Made by a program: the position numbers and the translations under genes. This document shows, piece by piece, positions 24,033 through 32,509 of a stretch of DNA of 32,833 nucleotides; within the stretch, counting starts at the first letter, position 1, and each line of letters opens with the position of its first letter. The notes beneath the pieces are model-generated. The model made no database searches. It was given only the letters and a program-made list of their open reading frames with translations, and had not been told where the DNA came from. The DNA is from Candidatus Poribacteria bacterium (GTDB lineage Bacteria; Poribacteria; WGA-4E; WGA-3G). Location of the stretch: NCBI GenBank assembly GCA_009839745.1, contig VXPE01000033.1, forward strand, positions 1 through 32,833, in the 5' to 3' direction.

Positions 24033-25478
24033 TCATGATCTGCGATAAAAAATCCGTATCGGTGTGCCGTAAAATCCGAATTCCTCCCGAAGACTGTTGA
24101 TAAGGTAGGCTTGATATGGCTGCTGGACGCGATGGACATTCCGTCCGAAGATTAAAAAAGTGGGCGGTTTGGTTCCTACCTGCGTGATATATTTGAGTGC
24201 GGGTCGGACCCCTTTAACCCGCGGCGGTGGATGTGCATTTCGCCACTCTAAAAGCAATTCGTTGAGTGCGGGTGTAGGGATGTGTGTACAATACTCACGG
24301 TAGACCTCAAGTGCAGTCGTTAATACTTGGGTAACACGTTGTCCAGTGAGTGCCGAAATAAAGACGCGTGGCACATAACTGAGTTGCGGAAGTTGAACAT
24401 CTATGGCATCCATAAACGCTGGATGTGTTGTGTCATCTTTATCAATCAGGTCCCACTTGTTCATGACTAAAACGGAGGCCTTCCCTTGTCGTTCGATGAA
24501 ATTAGCGATAGTCTTATCCTGTTGTGCGACTTCTTGGGTTACATCGAGCACAAGAACAGCGATGTCGCTCTGGCGAATGCTGTGTATGGCACGTTGGACG
24601 GTTGCGGATTCAAGTTCATCCTTGATAGTGGATTTACGCCGCATTCCCGCTGTATCAACCACCTCAAACGGGATATTGTCGTGAACGAGTCGGATATTCA
24701 CAGCATCGCGCGTGGTGCCGGGTCGGTCATCAACAATCATCCGCTCCTCCCCTAACAAGCTATTGATAAACGAGGACTTCCCGACATTCGGTCTACCCAC
24801 AATGGCGATTTTCATTGTGGCAGGCGCGTCATGGACGATTTCGTCGGCCTCAGGAAGGGCTTCAACGATGTGGTCGAGGAGTTCCCGAATCCCATCGTTT
24901 TGGACACATGATGTCCACATCGGCTCTGACAATCCGAGTGCGTAAAATTCGGCGGCTTCATTGTGAAATCGGTCGCTATCTACCTTATTGACCACGAGGG
25001 AGATAGGTTTATCAGCGGCTCTGAGTTTATCAACGATAACCCTGTCATGGGGCATGATACCGGTCCGTGCGTCAACGACGAAAAGGACAAGGCTCGCTTC
25101 AGCTAAGGCAGTATCCACCTGCGCTTGAACATTATCGATGAGTCGGTCATCAGGATCAATATCCAAACCGCCGGTGTCAACGATGGTAAAAGCGCGGTCT
25201 ACCCATTGCACATCAGCGTAGTTTCTGTCGCGCGTCACACCGGGAGTGTCATGAACGACAGCGTATCTACGTGAGGAACGATTTTCAGTTCCCTGTTTTC
25301 GGTCATCCGTTAAAGAGGCCTCTGGTTCAACAGGCTCATTTTTTAACCGAGAATCGACACCCACTGTTTGAGAACCTCTCTGCTGCCGACGGCTATTTGC
25401 AGTGATTCGATTGAAAAGCGATGATTTCCCGACGTTCGGTCTGCCGACGATCGCTACAATGGGGCGTACGGTTTCCAT
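24033..25478 (-). CDS. der: GTPase Der (EngA), ribosome assembly, with in-frame insertion
   Basis: A 481-residue double-GTPase that acts in 50S subunit maturation; family members are about 440 long. Domain 1 has G1 GRPNVGKSSLF (12-22), G3 DTGG (101-104) and NKVD; domain 2 has GRPNVGKSSF, DTAGMRRK and NKWD; the KH-like C-terminal domain ends at GTPIRIFYR. In domain 1 the loop between G1 and the conserved AVVHDTPGVTRDRNY is enlarged by about 40 residues (about 31-71, QQRGSQTVGVDSRLKNEPVE to SLTDDRKQGTENRSS), and the DNA there is a palindromic repeat (25279-25356). The insertion falls in the switch I region. The ATG at 25478 is preceded by AAGGAA at a 10-nt spacing, supplied by repeat A. Confidence 0.93.
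   Translation of the reverse strand: METVRPIVAIVGRPNVGKSSLFNRITANSRRQQRGSQTVGVDSRLKNEPVEPEASLTDDRKQGTENRSSRRYAVVHDTPGVTRDRNYADVQWVDRAFTIVDTGGLDIDPDDRLIDNVQAQVDTALAEASLVLFVVDARTGIMPHDRVIVDKLRAADKPISLVVNKVDSDRFHNEAAEFYALGLSEPMWTSCVQNDGIRELLDHIVEALPEADEIVHDAPATMKIAIVGRPNVGKSSFINSLLGEERMIVDDRPGTTRDAVNIRLVHDNIPFEVVDTAGMRRKSTIKDELESATVQRAIHSIRQSDIAVLVLDVTQEVAQQDKTIANFIERQGKASVLVMNKWDLIDKDDTTHPAFMDAIDVQLPQLSYVPRVFISALTGQRVTQVLTTALEVYREYCTHIPTPALNELLLEWRNAHPPPRVKGVRPALKYITQVGTKPPTFLIFGRNVHRVQQPYQAYLINSLREEFGFYGTPIRIFYRRS
25279..25356. repeat. Palindromic repeat inside der
   Basis: CGATTTTCAGTT (25279-25290) and AACCGAGAATCG (25345-25356) are inverted copies with two mismatches, around a central palindrome AGAGGCCTCT (25314-25323). 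The layout (TTTTCAGT end, GTTAA-AGAGG, CCTCTGGTT) resembles repeat B at 23917-24032. It is translated in frame and encodes most of the extra residues of Der. Confidence 0.55.
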
Positions 25479-25480
25479 GT

Positions 25481-25672
25481 TTTTAATTTTCCTTGCGGTT
25501 CGGTGAGGTACGTTTCAAGCTTAGCGTGCCTTTCCGTATACCCGTCCTCCACTACGTTACGGACTATGCGATCTTAGACAACACAAAATGTTTAACGTTC
25601 CTTGCGGTTCGGTGAGGTACGTTTCAAGCTTAGCGTGCCTTTCCGTATATCCCACCCTCACTCTGTTACGGA
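25481..25672. repeat. Two direct copies of repeat A between der and the AI-2E gene
   Basis: The 50-bp block starting CCTTGCGGTTCGGTGAGG is identical at 25491-25540 and 25600-25649, 109 bp apart, each followed by a related CTCC/CTCA-TTACGG segment. The first copy supplies AAGGAA for der. The second runs into the 3' end of the AI-2E gene, whose stop (25666-25668) falls in the TTACGG segment. Confidence 0.85.
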
Positions 25673-28002
25673 TTTTCCGTAGTATCGTCGGCTGCGTTAA
25701 CTTCCAAGCGTCCATTTGTCGCTACAGATTGAGAAACGGCAATAACCGATTTTACCACAACAATGATAGGAATTGCAAGCAATACACCCCAAAATCCGAG
25801 TACAGCGGCCCCAACAATCACAGCGAACATAATAAGCAGGGGATCTACATCAACGGCGGTGCTCATGATTTTAGGTGAAATTAATGAGTTGTCAAGCGTC
25901 TGAATGCCAAGGATAGCAGCTAACAGAAAAGCACTGCGAATGAGGAAATCAATCATGCCGAAATCCCCAGCCGCCAGCCCCATTAGCATCGCTATGTATG
26001 CGAAACCGCCACCGATAAAGGGTCCAAAGGTCGGTATAGCATTACAGATCCCGGCGATTACACCAATAACCAATGCGAACGGCACACCGATAATGCTGTA
26101 CGCAATACAGGAAACGATCGACACAATTGCGATGACTGTGACTAATCCTTTTAGGAACTGCTGTAAATTTCTATCAATTTCGCGCAGATAGGTCTTGGCA
26201 GTTTCGCGATGGAGCTCAGGGACCAGCGTGATGAAACTGCGGAAATAATTGTCAAACGACTGGTTTGCATAGACAAACACAATGAATGCGAGTGATACTG
26301 TGGCTAAAAACCCACCAAATCCAAAGGCGATTGAACCCGCGAACTGAAATCCCTCTCTGATAGCCTCCCCCCCTGTCTGGGCAATCATTGGTATTCTCTC
26401 AGTCAAATATGCTTTCGCTTGCTGGACAATTGGTTCGTCCCGATACGTATAACTCAGTCCTTCCTTATATGTCGCAAAGGGTCGCCATCCGGCAGTAGTC
26501 GTCGCCCGGTGAAGGATAGCAGTTTCAGTACCGATGTATACACCAGAAGGTGCCGATGCTAACAACGAGACTGCAGCGGTCCCTTCCGTTTTACGCCATG
26601 TGCCAAAACGATGCCACTCATAGAGACCATCAGGCGTGCCAGCGTAAAGTTCAATTTTTCTAATTTTCCCTGCGGTTCGGTGAGGTGTGTTGGGATCTTC
26701 ACGCGTCTCTGCGTCGAGTCGCCTTCCACTACCTTTCAGGCTTGTGCTTTGGATCTCGGATCCCGATTTTACTGGAAAGGGTACGTCACTTGCAAGCGCA
26801 TAAACGGGATGTGCTATAGAAGGAAGCGGATTCCACTCAAGAGAGGAATCCTCCAGATACCAATGCACGGTTGTAGCCTTAGGCGTTATAGAAGGAGATA
26901 GCGAACTGACGCGTGCTCCTACAGGCATGGCCTCACTTATCGTTGTACTGGCGACATAAATTGTCCTATCACCATTCGTATCCACAAGTGAGACGATACT
27001 GACGATGGACCTATCACCATAAGTGTTAGGGGCAACCTCACGCCATGTTTGTCCCAAATCCTTAGTGCTGTAAAGTCCTTTTTGTGTCCCAACGTAAATC
27101 TGGGTATTATCCCAATTCGGCACACTGATAGTTTGAATGGAGAGGGTATCGAAAGGGGTTCCTTGCACCTTGTGCCATATTCTTGGGTTCTGGATGCGTG
27201 TTACGTTATCGTCAATCGCCTCAGTGCTATCGACGGGCAATGCTTTGTAATACCGATATAACCCACTCTGCGTACCGGCATAGATAACGTTTCCAACTGC
27301 TGCGAGTGCTTGTATCGATTTACCAAGGAGTCTATCATTCGTAATCCCAATACGGTCGAGCTCCCTTTCTGCTCCCTGTCGAATTTCATAGACACCGTGA
27401 TTCGTCCCGAGATAGAACGTCTCTGTTGGGGTCGCCTGCTCGTCTGTTGCTGCTACATCGCCTTCGTTAACACTAATAGCGACCGCTTCAAATGTTTCAC
27501 CGACGACATAAGGTAGGATCGTCTCGTAATAAAACTTCAGTAACCCACTTCCCATTTGGGTTGCTTGTTTGCTCACCTGTTTTCCGGTATAGAACAGCAG
27601 TGCACCGCAGACGCACACAATCAGCACTGTCGCGATCCCACGTTGGTATTGTGCTTTGAAGGGGAGAGCATTCCAGAGAAACCTAAAGATATAAGCGAAG
27701 CCAAATCCTAAAATGAAAGGGGTTAGCACGCCCAACAAACGGATAAAAATCCATACGGCTATCATCAGTATCTCAAGAATGACGATGCTTTTTAGGTCGA
27801 TCCAACGGTAAACGCGGACAAGCAGTACAATCAGCAGTATCGGCACGATTGGATGCAGCAAGAGTATTCGGCTGCTGTTGGCGCTGCCTTTGTAATAGGC
27901 AAAGGCTATCCATCCGGCAGCGAGCACGACGCTGATAATTGAGAGAATCGTTGTGACGCTGAGTACTGGCGGCTGTGGATTCGGCTCATTTTGCGTATTC
28001 AT
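25666..28002 (-). CDS. AI-2E-type transporter with a beta-propeller inserted in its external loop
   Basis: A 778-residue protein; AI-2E (PF01594; TqsA/PerM) proteins are usually about 350. Residues 1-160 hold the first helices, including LGVLTPFILGFGFAYIFRFL, and residues 540-755 hold the rest with the family blocks LKGLVTVIAIVSIVSCIAYS, GVPFALVIGVIAGICNAIPT, FGPFIGGG and ISPKIMSTAVDVDPLLIMFA. Between them, about 190-515 is a repeat region: FYLGTNHGVYEI, VIYAGTQSGLYRY, QIYVGTQKGLYSTKDLGQTW (an Asp-box), ELYAGTPDGLYEW and GVYIGTETAILHR. This is a sialidase/Ycf48-type propeller lying where these proteins have their extracytoplasmic loop. The carrier would export a small molecule or Na+; the propeller may sense or bind a ligand. 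Residues 422-448 come from a repeat A copy. The gene runs with no apparent error. Confidence 0.85.
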   Translation of the reverse strand: MNTQNEPNPQPPVLSVTTILSIISVVLAAGWIAFAYYKGSANSSRILLLHPIVPILLIVLLVRVYRWIDLKSIVILEILMIAVWIFIRLLGVLTPFILGFGFAYIFRFLWNALPFKAQYQRGIATVLIVCVCGALLFYTGKQVSKQATQMGSGLLKFYYETILPYVVGETFEAVAISVNEGDVAATDEQATPTETFYLGTNHGVYEIRQGAERELDRIGITNDRLLGKSIQALAAVGNVIYAGTQSGLYRYYKALPVDSTEAIDDNVTRIQNPRIWHKVQGTPFDTLSIQTISVPNWDNTQIYVGTQKGLYSTKDLGQTWREVAPNTYGDRSIVSIVSLVDTNGDRTIYVASTTISEAMPVGARVSSLSPSITPKATTVHWYLEDSSLEWNPLPSIAHPVYALASDVPFPVKSGSEIQSTSLKGSGRRLDAETREDPNTPHRTAGKIRKIELYAGTPDGLYEWHRFGTWRKTEGTAAVSLLASAPSGVYIGTETAILHRATTTAGWRPFATYKEGLSYTYRDEPIVQQAKAYLTERIPMIAQTGGEAIREGFQFAGSIAFGFGGFLATVSLAFIVFVYANQSFDNYFRSFITLVPELHRETAKTYLREIDRNLQQFLKGLVTVIAIVSIVSCIAYSIIGVPFALVIGVIAGICNAIPTFGPFIGGGFAYIAMLMGLAAGDFGMIDFLIRSAFLLAAILGIQTLDNSLISPKIMSTAVDVDPLLIMFAVIVGAAVLGFWGVLLAIPIIVVVKSVIAVSQSVATNGRLEVNAADDTTENP
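26648..26760. repeat. Repeat A copy inside the AI-2E/propeller coding sequence
   Basis: TTTTCTAATTTTCCCTGCGG and TTCGGTGAGGTGTGTT, then CACGCGTCTCTGCGT and an AGGCTTGTGCTTTGG end, follow the same order as the copies at 32540-32640. One base of the core differs (CCCTGCGG). On the minus strand it encodes GSGRRLDAETREDPNTPHRT then AGKIRKI in frame between two propeller blades. Confidence 0.7.
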
Positions 28003-28131: not shown

Positions 28132-29715
28132 TTACGCGGTTGCGGGGGCATCCGTTGAATCTCTGGATTCATACGTTTCAATCACGCCTGCCCCGATGCT
28201 GTCCCCCCAAACGTTAATTGTGGTTCGGAAGCGATCCAGCAGCCAATCAATAGAGAGAATAAGCGTTATTCCTTCAACGGGGAGGTCTACGGCTCTGAGC
28301 ACAATAACCATTGTGACGAGACCTGCCTCTGGAATCCCTGCTGCGCCGATTGCTGCCAAAGTCGCTGTAAGGACAACAACAATTTGTTGCGCTGGATCCA
28401 TGTTTATCGCATAGACCTGTGCGATGAACATGACAGCGACTGCCTCATAAAGTGCAGTGCCGTCCATATTAATGGTGGCGCCTAAGGGGAGGACGAAACT
28501 GGCGGTCCGGCTGGAAACCCCATTCTGATTCTCGACCCCTTCCATGGTTAGTGGCAGGGTTGCACTTGAACTCGCTGTTGAAAAGGCATTCAATAAAGCG
28601 GTCGCCATGCCCTTGAAGTAATTGACGGGGTTCCGACGTCCGAGGAATAACAGCAGTAGGGGTAAAACGACAACAGCGTGTAAACCGAGCCCTAACAATA
28701 CTGTGGCACTATATTTTCCGACTGCAACGAGTTCGGGCCAGAAACCTGCGAACCCCTTTGCTTCACCGATTCTGCCCGCGATTAAGCCGAAGATGCCGAC
28801 CGGTGCGACATACATTATCCAGTGAACGAGCTTCATCACGGCTTCGTTTAATCCGGCAATCACGGAGACAACGGGTTTGCCAATATCACCAAGCATAGAT
28901 AAGGCAGCCCCGATGAGGAGTGAGAAAAAGATTAAGGGCAGAATGTCGGTGTGCACCATCGCTTTGAAGACGTTTGAGGGGATCATCCCCTCTTTGCCGG
29001 TATCTTCGTTACCGAGAAACACCTCTTTGATGGTGTTGCCCATCGTCCGCTCAGTTTTGTCGGACATCCTTGTGGCGATCGGTAAACTGATGTCGATGCC
29101 TTTACCGGTAGCGTTAGGTTCTATCCTGACGAGCCGCCCCTCAGAGAATAACAAACGTTCCCCATCGTCGGTGGTGACATAACGGGCATCCTTGAAGGGT
29201 TGCCACGATTTTACTGTGACGGTCGTTCCCGAAATTGATTCGACTTCACCCCGGATGTCTTGGTCGATGAGGGTAATGACATATTTATTGTTATAGGTCC
29301 GATTGAATTCCCCGCTCAGCTCAGCAGTGAGCATCTCAGGACCAGAGAGCGTGTAACTTAGCTCGGGACGTTCTTCGCCTTGCGAGAGTCCTTTCCCCGG
29401 CAAAATGATGTTGACGAGAATTATTCCAATGAGAACAGAAATAGCGGTTGTCGCCATGTAGTAGAGGACAGTCCGTCCGCCGATGGAACCGATGTTGCGG
29501 ATATCGCCTAAATTCGTTATCCCGACTATCATGGACAAGACGACGAGGGGCACGACTATCATTTTGAGTAAGTTTAAGAATATCTCACCGAGTATTGTTG
29601 TGTGGACTGCAAAGCCTGGTGCGAACCCACCGATGATTGCTCCCGCGATAATCGCAATGATAATCCCGTAAAGCAGGCCGAGGCTGACCTTTGGTTTCTT
29701 TTCGTTTTCGTTCAT
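28132..29715 (-). CDS. Dicarboxylate/amino acid:cation symporter (DAACS) with enlarged loop
   Basis: A 527-residue transporter of the glutamate/C4-dicarboxylate symporter family, which imports acidic amino acids or dicarboxylates with Na+ or H+. Members are usually about 420. Key blocks: LNLLKMIVVPLVVLSMIVGI, the serine-rich hairpin STASSSATLPLTME, GATINMDGTALYEAV (the NMDGT cation motif) and AIGAAGIPEAGLVTMVIVL (HP2), then DRFRTTINVWGDS with the substrate-binding Arg and Asn/Asp. The extra residues, about 110-245, sit after the third helix and before IPSNVFKAM, and contain a beta-rich segment (VITLIDQDIRGEVESISGTT then SWQPFKDARYVTTDDGERLL), probably an extracytoplasmic domain. The ATG is 10 nt after the Uma2 stop, with TAAGGAG straddling that stop, so the two genes are co-transcribed. 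Confidence 0.9.
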   Translation of the reverse strand: MNENEKKPKVSLGLLYGIIIAIIAGAIIGGFAPGFAVHTTILGEIFLNLLKMIVVPLVVLSMIVGITNLGDIRNIGSIGGRTVLYYMATTAISVLIGIILVNIILPGKGLSQGEERPELSYTLSGPEMLTAELSGEFNRTYNNKYVITLIDQDIRGEVESISGTTVTVKSWQPFKDARYVTTDDGERLLFSEGRLVRIEPNATGKGIDISLPIATRMSDKTERTMGNTIKEVFLGNEDTGKEGMIPSNVFKAMVHTDILPLIFFSLLIGAALSMLGDIGKPVVSVIAGLNEAVMKLVHWIMYVAPVGIFGLIAGRIGEAKGFAGFWPELVAVGKYSATVLLGLGLHAVVVLPLLLLFLGRRNPVNYFKGMATALLNAFSTASSSATLPLTMEGVENQNGVSSRTASFVLPLGATINMDGTALYEAVAVMFIAQVYAINMDPAQQIVVVLTATLAAIGAAGIPEAGLVTMVIVLRAVDLPVEGITLILSIDWLLDRFRTTINVWGDSIGAGVIETYESRDSTDAPATA

Positions 29716-30490: not shown

Positions 30491-32509
30491 TTAGACATCT
30501 CCGTCAACGCGAATTGAGAGCTCTTCCAGTTGTGCGTCTGTTACAAGGGACGGCGCGTGTGTGAGCGGACAAAGTCCCTGTTGCGATTTCGGGAAAGCGA
30601 TGACCTCTCGGATGTTCTCCTCGTTCCGCATCAACATGACAATCCGGTCTAAACCCGGTGCAATGCCTGCATGCGGCGGTGTGCCATACGCCAAGGCATC
30701 TATGAAATAGCCAAATCGGCTTTCGACCTCTTCCGGCGTGATGTCCAAGACATCGAAAACCTTTTGTTGGATATCCCACTGGTGGATTCTCACGCTTCCG
30801 CTACAGATCTCATATCCGTTGCACACGAGATCGTAGTGTTGGCTCTGCACCTTCCCGGGATCCGTGTCTAACAACGGTAAAGTCTCTTCTGTTCCTCCGG
30901 TGAATAGATGGTGGAAGGGTTCGTAGCGATTCTCATCCTCATTCCATTCAAACAAGGGATAATCAACGATCCACAGGAAATTGTACCGGGTTTCGTCAAT
31001 GAGGTTTAGTTTGCGTCCAAGATGGAGGCGGAGGTTGCCGAGGGCATCGGCGACGACCTTAGGTCTGTCAGCAACAAAGAACATGATGTCGCCCGGTTTC
31101 GCGCCCGTTCTCTCCTGTGCCGTTTCAAGTTGCTCTGTTGTGAAGAACTTGACAATACCAGACGAAAACCCACCGATCGTAACTTTAACCCATGCCAATC
31201 CTTTTGCTCGATAAGTGGCGACGAATTGGGTCAGGTCGTCGATGTCTTTGCGTGAAAAGTCCGCCCCCCCTGGGGCGGCAATGGCTTTGACCTGTCCACC
31301 TGCGGACAAGGCGCGTGTGAATACTTGAAACTCACAATCCGCCATGACATCCGAGAGATCGGTAAGCTCCATACCGAAGCGCGTATCGGGTTTGTCGTTC
31401 CCGAACCGTGCTATCGACTCGTGATACGGGAGCCGTAGGAAAGGCGTTTGGACGGGAATACCCCCCGCACCCTCAAATATACGTTTCATCAACCCCTCGG
31501 TCACCTCAAGCACATCGTCCACGTCGGCGAATGACATTTCAATATCAAGCTGGGTGAATTCCAGCTGTCTGTCAGAACGGGTATCCTCATCGCGGAAGCA
31601 CCGTGCTATTTGGAAATATCGATCAACGCCGCTCATCATTAAAATCTGTTTAAACTGCTGCGGTGATTGTGGAAGCGCATAGAACCTGCCGGGGTAATGA
31701 CGACTGGGAACGAGTACGTCCCGCGCCCCTTCGGGTGTGCTGTTCATTAAAATGGGAGTCTCAATCTCAAGGAAGCCCTGCTCGTTCATATAATTGCGCG
31801 CTGCGAGTGCCGCTTTATGCCGCATTGCTAAAGTTTTCTGCATCTCAGGGCGACGTAGATCAATAAATCGGTAGCGCATCCGAATGTCTTCCGCTACGTC
31901 GATGTCGTCTTCAACAGGGAACGGCGGCGTTTTGGCGGTATTCAGAATATTCAGAGAATCCACAGCGAGTTCAATCTCACCTGTGTCGAGTTCCGGGTTG
32001 ACTGTGCCTTGGTAAATGCTGAGACCGTTTTCCGTATTTTCGATGTGATATGTCCGATTATTTTCGACATCGGTGAGTAGCCACCGCGCGCCAGCGACGC
32101 GGGTCGCCACCTCAATCTCTTCGGCGAGGGTGTACTTCGCATCAACATCGGCAAACAGGGATCGGAATGCTGCGGAGAGGGTGCCATCGGCGAGTTCTGT
32201 TTGGTACGCAGCGTCTGCATGGAAGAGCAATTCGCCGGGATCCCGTTCGCGAACGGTGCCACTGACGTTCAGCACATATTCGCTTCTAATGCTATCTGCG
32301 AGGGCGTGTGCTTTTTCATCAATCTGTGGATCAAAAACAACTTGTGTGATGCCTGTTCTATCGCGTAAATCAACGAAGATGACGCCCCCATGGTCTCGAC
32401 GGCGGTTGACCCAACCGTTGAGTTGCACAGTGGTCCCTGCATCGGCTAAGCGCAGGTCCCCACAATAATGGGTTCGTTTTAAACAAGGTGATGTGGCTTC
32501 TTGAGACAT
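30491..32509 (-). CDS. aspS: Aspartyl-tRNA synthetase with an extra domain in the anticodon-binding region
   Basis: A 672-residue class IIb synthetase; bacterial AspRS is about 590. The OB-fold anticodon domain opens with VQLNGWVNRRRDHGGVIFVD, class II motif 2 is FRDEDTRSDRQLEFTQLDIE, the bacterial GAD insertion is at about 375-475 and motif 3 is GIAPGLDRIVMLM near the C-terminus. The extra 77 residues lie at about 91-167, between GTVRERD and GTVNPELDTGEIEL, where family members read directly on. They contain YQTELADGTLSAAFRSLFAD and GARWLLTDVENNRTYHIENT, a small alpha/beta-looking unit I do not recognise. ATG at 32509 is preceded by AAGGAA at 10 nt from repeat A. Confidence 0.95.
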   Translation of the reverse strand: MSQEATSPCLKRTHYCGDLRLADAGTTVQLNGWVNRRRDHGGVIFVDLRDRTGITQVVFDPQIDEKAHALADSIRSEYVLNVSGTVRERDPGELLFHADAAYQTELADGTLSAAFRSLFADVDAKYTLAEEIEVATRVAGARWLLTDVENNRTYHIENTENGLSIYQGTVNPELDTGEIELAVDSLNILNTAKTPPFPVEDDIDVAEDIRMRYRFIDLRRPEMQKTLAMRHKAALAARNYMNEQGFLEIETPILMNSTPEGARDVLVPSRHYPGRFYALPQSPQQFKQILMMSGVDRYFQIARCFRDEDTRSDRQLEFTQLDIEMSFADVDDVLEVTEGLMKRIFEGAGGIPVQTPFLRLPYHESIARFGNDKPDTRFGMELTDLSDVMADCEFQVFTRALSAGGQVKAIAAPGGADFSRKDIDDLTQFVATYRAKGLAWVKVTIGGFSSGIVKFFTTEQLETAQERTGAKPGDIMFFVADRPKVVADALGNLRLHLGRKLNLIDETRYNFLWIVDYPLFEWNEDENRYEPFHHLFTGGTEETLPLLDTDPGKVQSQHYDLVCNGYEICSGSVRIHQWDIQQKVFDVLDITPEEVESRFGYFIDALAYGTPPHAGIAPGLDRIVMLMRNEENIREVIAFPKSQQGLCPLTHAPSLVTDAQLEELSIRVDGDV

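Follow-up and report, generated by a model that had tools for sequence, protein, structure and literature searches.

A transporter of the AI-2E family in Candidatus Poribacteria with a predicted six-bladed beta-propeller between its membrane halves

How does a transporter of the AI-2E family come to carry a beta-propeller between its two membrane halves, and what may this domain do there? The question is raised by one gene of a sponge-associated member of Candidatus Poribacteria, located in a stretch of 32,833 nucleotides that was analyzed as a whole (hereafter, the window). To our knowledge, the regulation of AI-2E proteins is poorly understood.

Domain organization of the protein

The gene and the parts of its product are as follows.

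25666–28002, minus strand: AI-2E family transporter with an inserted beta-propeller, 778 amino acids (open reading frame, start codon ATG; Pfam PF01594)
27493–28002, minus strand: N-terminal membrane half, residues 1–170 (hydropathy, charge counts, AlphaFold2 helices, orthologue alignment)
26467–27492, minus strand: predicted six-bladed Asp-box-type beta-propeller, residues ~171–512, with blade motifs at residues 197, 241, 303, ~349, 453, and 489 (repeats, blade HMM, AlphaFold2, Foldseek; boundaries from propeller-less orthologues)
26665–26934, minus strand: variable loop linking blades four and five, residues ~357–446 (AlphaFold2, homologue alignment)
25669–26466, minus strand: second stalk helix (residues 524–554) and C-terminal AI-2E membrane half (558–757) (Pfam, alignment, AlphaFold2)

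According to the Pfam scan, the AI-2E_transport family (PF01594) matches residues 552–755 with E 2e-34, plus one weaker second stretch, at 119.7 bits against the curated cut-off of 34.3, and all NCBIfam models of the AI-2E family score far under their cut-offs on this protein. It is the one PF01594 gene found in its genome; AI-2E proteins are present in 13 out of 14 control genomes. The C-terminal half carries two conserved signatures, GVPFALVxGxxAGxxNAIPTFGPxIGG and DNSLISPKxMSxAVxVDPLLIM. The N-terminal half comprises hydrophobic segments at approximately 16–38, 46–65, 73–91, 95–112, and 121–141 and is closed by an amphipathic stalk helix reaching residue ~166; two extra N-terminal transmembrane helices are common to the window protein and its orthologues that have no propeller.

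Between the membrane halves, the single-sequence scan yielded no match at the Pfam curated cut-off, and weak matches to the BNR, Sortilin or similar Pfam models are seen in a minority of the propeller-carrying homologues. Nevertheless, residues 166–524 contain five copies of a YxGTxxGLY-type motif (at 197, 241, 303, 453, and 489), compared with the mean of 0.009 and the maximum of one in 5000 shuffled sequences. A blade HMM whose training set came exclusively from other families and genera detects six stretches with 74.7 bits summed, at most 3.7 bits being reached in 500 shuffles; taken singly, blades four and six score weakly. These controls rule out chance repeats. The Asp-box motif S/T-x-D-x-G-x-T-W is present as STKDLGQTW in the third blade and is shared by most of the homologues shown.

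Structure prediction points in the same direction. In the full-length AlphaFold2 model, built from 46 natural sequences, pLDDT is ~85–94 across most of the propeller and drops to ~55–75 in the greater part of the C-terminal membrane region; the propeller modeled alone from 48 sequences has pTM 0.80, and 191 of its 359 residues reach pLDDT 90 or more. The loop at residues ~357–446 is long, differs in length between species, and mostly has low confidence. Foldseek matches of the propeller model are beta-propellers, including YCF48, GH74, sensor ectodomains, and LRP2, the latter having the best query-normalized TM-score among the matches listed, 0.56; such modest scores are probably due to the long loops of the domain. 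For the full-length model, the best 50 matches are mainly propellers, and the low-confidence membrane part is presumably the reason why TqsA is not among them. By sequence profile, the nearest solved relative is the ectodomain of the Bacteroides sensor BT4673 (E 1.9e-8), further ones being a BNR protein and GH74 enzymes.

We therefore assign the domain to the Asp-box/BNR-type propellers, with six tandem blades that probably form a closed ring. The first-pass annotation had placed a propeller between the N- and C-terminal helices of an AI-2E protein, and the open reading frame, Pfam, repeats, and AlphaFold2 agree on this layout, while the structure prediction and Foldseek uphold the fold. Its bounds for the domain, 190–515, give way to ~170–512.

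No hydrophobic segment is found between residues 166 and 524. The Lys/Arg load is ~1.8 in each of the loops 66–72 and 113–120, predicted to be cytoplasmic, and 0.9 in the loop 39–51, predicted to lie outside; given this twofold difference and the positive-inside rule, the propeller loop is probably outside the cytoplasm, in the periplasm, so that the extracytoplasmic placement proposed earlier has its support from the charge distribution. In the AlphaFold2 model, the propeller directly joins the stalk helices 142–166 and 524–554, both of which run straight into transmembrane segments, and hence a binding event at the propeller could affect the transporter.

Insertion site, distribution, and history

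The comparison with orthologues also involves two neighboring genes.

24033–25478, minus strand: Der/EngA GTPase, a conserved neighbor (synteny in nearly all congeners and at loci L059, L060, L061, L062, L065, and L068)
28132–29715, minus strand: sodium:dicarboxylate symporter (PF00375), a conserved neighbor (synteny in nearly all congeners and at L059, L060, L062, and L064)

Orthologues without the propeller, of 443–498 amino acids, are found in f3, a family from the window's order (L059, L062, L063), and in outgroup families (L067, L068, L119, L120). In L059, L062, L063, L067, and L068, the propeller site holds 15–34 residues compared with ~350 in the window protein, and the flanking sequence can be aligned on either side. 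The junction reads FYRDTVVPFVVGT followed directly by NEEKGILDKIEDFG in L059, FYYETILPYVVGE–propeller–KEGLSYTYRDEP in the window protein, and VPTAIGE–propeller–EGLLVELERLG in L065, which places the insertion point, within the loop joining the membrane halves, between V-G-E/T and E/K-G-I/L. L059 covers positions 5–325 out of 327 of PF01594 unbroken, and its alignment with the window protein extends over both flanks of the insert; in the C-terminal half, the window protein is 48–54% identical to the propeller-less orthologues L059–L068. As orthologues lack the domain, it is foreign to the ordinary AI-2E loop, as had been supposed, and its identity with that loop is ruled out.

In L059 and L062, the AI-2E gene is flanked by the symporter and Der, as in the window, and in L068 it adjoins Der. 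These shared neighbors indicate that the genes are orthologous and that the difference in the propeller is not an assembly error. The window does come from a fragmented assembly of 141 contigs, but the same open frame and neighbors recur across many independent assemblies, including single-contig genomes, which rules out an assembly or binning chimera for practical purposes and bears out the earlier view of the gene as genuine.

The same domain order does occur elsewhere, as anticipated. The propeller form, read directly in 48 distinct sequences, is present in all four sampled genera of the window's family (f1) and in two sister families, f2 and (in three genera) f4; judged by the length of the open reading frame, it occurs in ~60 out of 85 genomes of the phylum, several of them single-contig. 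In genus g5 of f4, only another AI-2E paralogue was found, also in the single-contig genome G044. A scan of public genome contigs with six peptide patterns, sensitive to close relatives only, gave full-length matches confined to Poribacteria: all 25 close relatives are poribacterial, and the 26th, distant match is from a Woesearchaeote (30% identity over part of the C-terminal half). In the tree of the membrane parts, a single change is seen in 32% of bootstrap trees, consistent with one gain, or with a gain and a loss in f3. Since the outgroups L067, L068, L119, and L120 have no propeller, its absence is likely the ancestral state. The first-pass annotation knew of no such transporter, and in the open-access literature searched, no propeller-bearing AI-2E protein is described; the parts are of known kinds, and the combination, the insertion site, and its conservation are new to us.

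Pairwise dN/dS ratios are 0.20–0.34 for the propeller and 0.03–0.14 for the membrane parts (0.21–0.26 in one very close pair, L022/L028). With the two closest relatives left out, identity within the genus is ~50–74% in the first part of the propeller compared with ~72–90% in the C-terminal half. Thus, as judged from sequence comparison, the propeller is under purifying selection yet changes more rapidly than the membrane part. At the positions invariant among 48 homologues, it has Gly, Trp, Tyr, or Thr, mostly from the blade scaffold, and never Asp, Glu, His, or Arg. A turn TxxxxxGK near residues 221–228 is conserved, and no strongly conserved polar patch is seen beyond it. Among the sequences read, no decaying form of the propeller was encountered.

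Related propellers and other insertions in the genome

Other matches to the propeller profile occur at ten places of the window's genome, six of them in proteins of ~970–1070 amino acids with N-termini resembling ECF sigma factors; Pfam confirms sigma domains in three out of three scanned (L075/L131, L126, L130). At least six proteins leading from an ECF sigma factor to a propeller are encoded in this genome (G000:C132, C6, C58, C91, C5, C101; L126–L128, L130, L131, L133). Their Asp-box beta-propellers are C-terminal, with a hydrophobic segment in between (seen in L075); these sigma factors are probably tethered to the membrane, with the sensor on the outside. When one of them is aligned by BLASTP with the window propeller, identity is 28% across 190 amino acids (E 6e-8); this value may arise from shared repeats alone, and descent from the sigma-factor propellers could be the case. 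As the relatives reside mostly on ECF sigma factors, a sensing role is favored.

In-frame additions of another kind were also observed. Many unrelated poribacterial proteins, one of them encoded in the window, carry an in-frame insertion of a ~75-residue domain with the approximate consensus L..G.IP..LR..F...GI.LS....V......W.ITD.....Y.I.....L.VY.

30491–32509, minus strand: AspRS gene, with the ~75-residue domain at ~31994–32233 (residues ~90–168)

No Pfam model covers this domain in AspRS. It is found at differing positions in AI-2E relatives (L058/L061, L065, L072–L074), and in proteins with Pfam matches to the families heme A synthase, YibE/F, VWA, histidine kinase, cyclase-TPR, and HEAT repeat; its loci also include L086, L088, L091, L092, L093, L105, and L106. 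The seven poribacterial genomes searched have 5–22 matches each, and that of the window has 11. It is possibly a dispersed protein-coding insertion element, alike only in behavior to the in-frame palindromic elements that occur in Rickettsia.

The Der/EngA protein of this genus has a variable insert of ~25–45 residues at positions ~27–70, between the first P-loop and HDTPGVTRDR (the switch I region), which is absent from the related families (L059–L062, L065, L068). The symporter has an apparent polar stretch of ~100 residues, approximately from EMLTAELSGEFNRTYNNKYVI to SDKTERTMGN, in agreement with its Pfam match being broken into two stretches. Class-level relatives in f5 (L066, L069, L070, L071) have non-propeller additions in the same AI-2E loop, that of L066 including a near-tandem repeat. 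Extra loops may be a general habit of the lineage, and the loop between the AI-2E halves seems to accept added domains in general.

Possible role of the propeller and comparison with known systems

The explanation that we prefer, at a probability of roughly 0.5, is that an AI-2E transporter gained a six-bladed propeller whose binding to a ligand, or to a partner in the envelope, influences via the stalk helices how the transporter opens. A standard AI-2E transporter would have acquired the domain at a single site between its membrane halves, probably from the pool of modules found on poribacterial ECF sigma factors; the periplasmic propeller would then bind its ligand or partner, and the signal would pass via helices 142–166 and 524–554 to the transporter. 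Against this, the membrane model is of moderate confidence, the arrangement of the propeller relative to the pore is predicted loosely, and the topology is read from charge counts only; moreover, a fast-varying propeller without a strongly conserved polar patch is unusual for a fixed small ligand. The first-pass annotation had proposed that the domain may be a gate on a small-molecule exporter. We are more tentative about such a narrower form, a ligand-gated transporter whose propeller was recruited from the ECF-sigma receptors and senses an environmental or sponge-derived molecule, exerting control via the stalk helices. As for the substrate, luxS has no match in this 96%-complete genome, where positive controls were detected; because LuxS is absent, AI-2 is unlikely to be exported, and a TqsA-like function as an AI-2 exporter was rejected.

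The propeller might instead serve for docking, binding an envelope protein, peptidoglycan, or polysaccharide and holding the transporter in position while leaving its gating unaffected. Propellers are common platforms for protein–protein interactions, the fold matches include peptide-binding ones such as YCF48 bound to the D1 peptide, and sequence drift around a constrained core would suit a species-specific partner surface. On the other hand, no obvious co-conserved partner gene is adjacent, the conserved neighbors being housekeeping der and the symporter, and many relatives of the propeller in the genome sit on signaling proteins, which leaves docking a possible but doubtful explanation.

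It is improbable that the propeller is a tolerated passenger of a permissive periplasmic loop, structurally maintained and contributing little. The same loop does accommodate the ~75-residue domain in L058, L061, and L065 and ~200 residues of other sequence in L066, and the neighboring housekeeping genes for AspRS and Der have in-frame additions as well, but the propeller is retained in ~60 species from three families, its fold is under purifying selection, and decaying forms were not seen. Still less credible is a fused sialidase- or GH74-like glycoside hydrolase processing a substrate beside the transporter, given that, despite the GH74 and BNR hydrolases among the top sequence and fold matches, the 48 homologues lack conserved catalytic acidic residues, and GH74 enzymes are double seven-bladed propellers, unlike the single propeller of the window protein.

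Orthologues with and without the propeller, in the same gene order and close to each other on the tree, constitute a natural swap experiment on the control of AI-2E transporters. The data also suggest that, in this sponge-associated phylum of uncultured bacteria, both signaling proteins and transporters reuse propeller modules.

The closest systems for comparison each share one part of this architecture. The propeller-less poribacterial orthologues represent the same gene with 15–34 residues at the propeller site. TqsA from E. coli (PF01594, PDB:7nb6) has a similar C-terminal half with its signatures, the two-halves layout, and a helical loop between the halves, whereas the window protein differs from it and from the AI-2E family in having two extra N-terminal helices and the ~340-residue propeller in the loop. 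The Bacteroides periplasmic sensors BT4673 (PDB:3va6/3ott) and BT4663 (PDB:4a2l/4a2m) are among the best folds for the propeller, but their multi-blade ectodomains are far larger and belong to histidine kinases of hybrid two-component systems. Finally, the poribacterial proteins composed of an ECF sigma factor, a membrane segment, and a propeller have related Asp-box/Sortilin-like repeats, and differ in being signaling proteins rather than transporters and in the longer propeller part.
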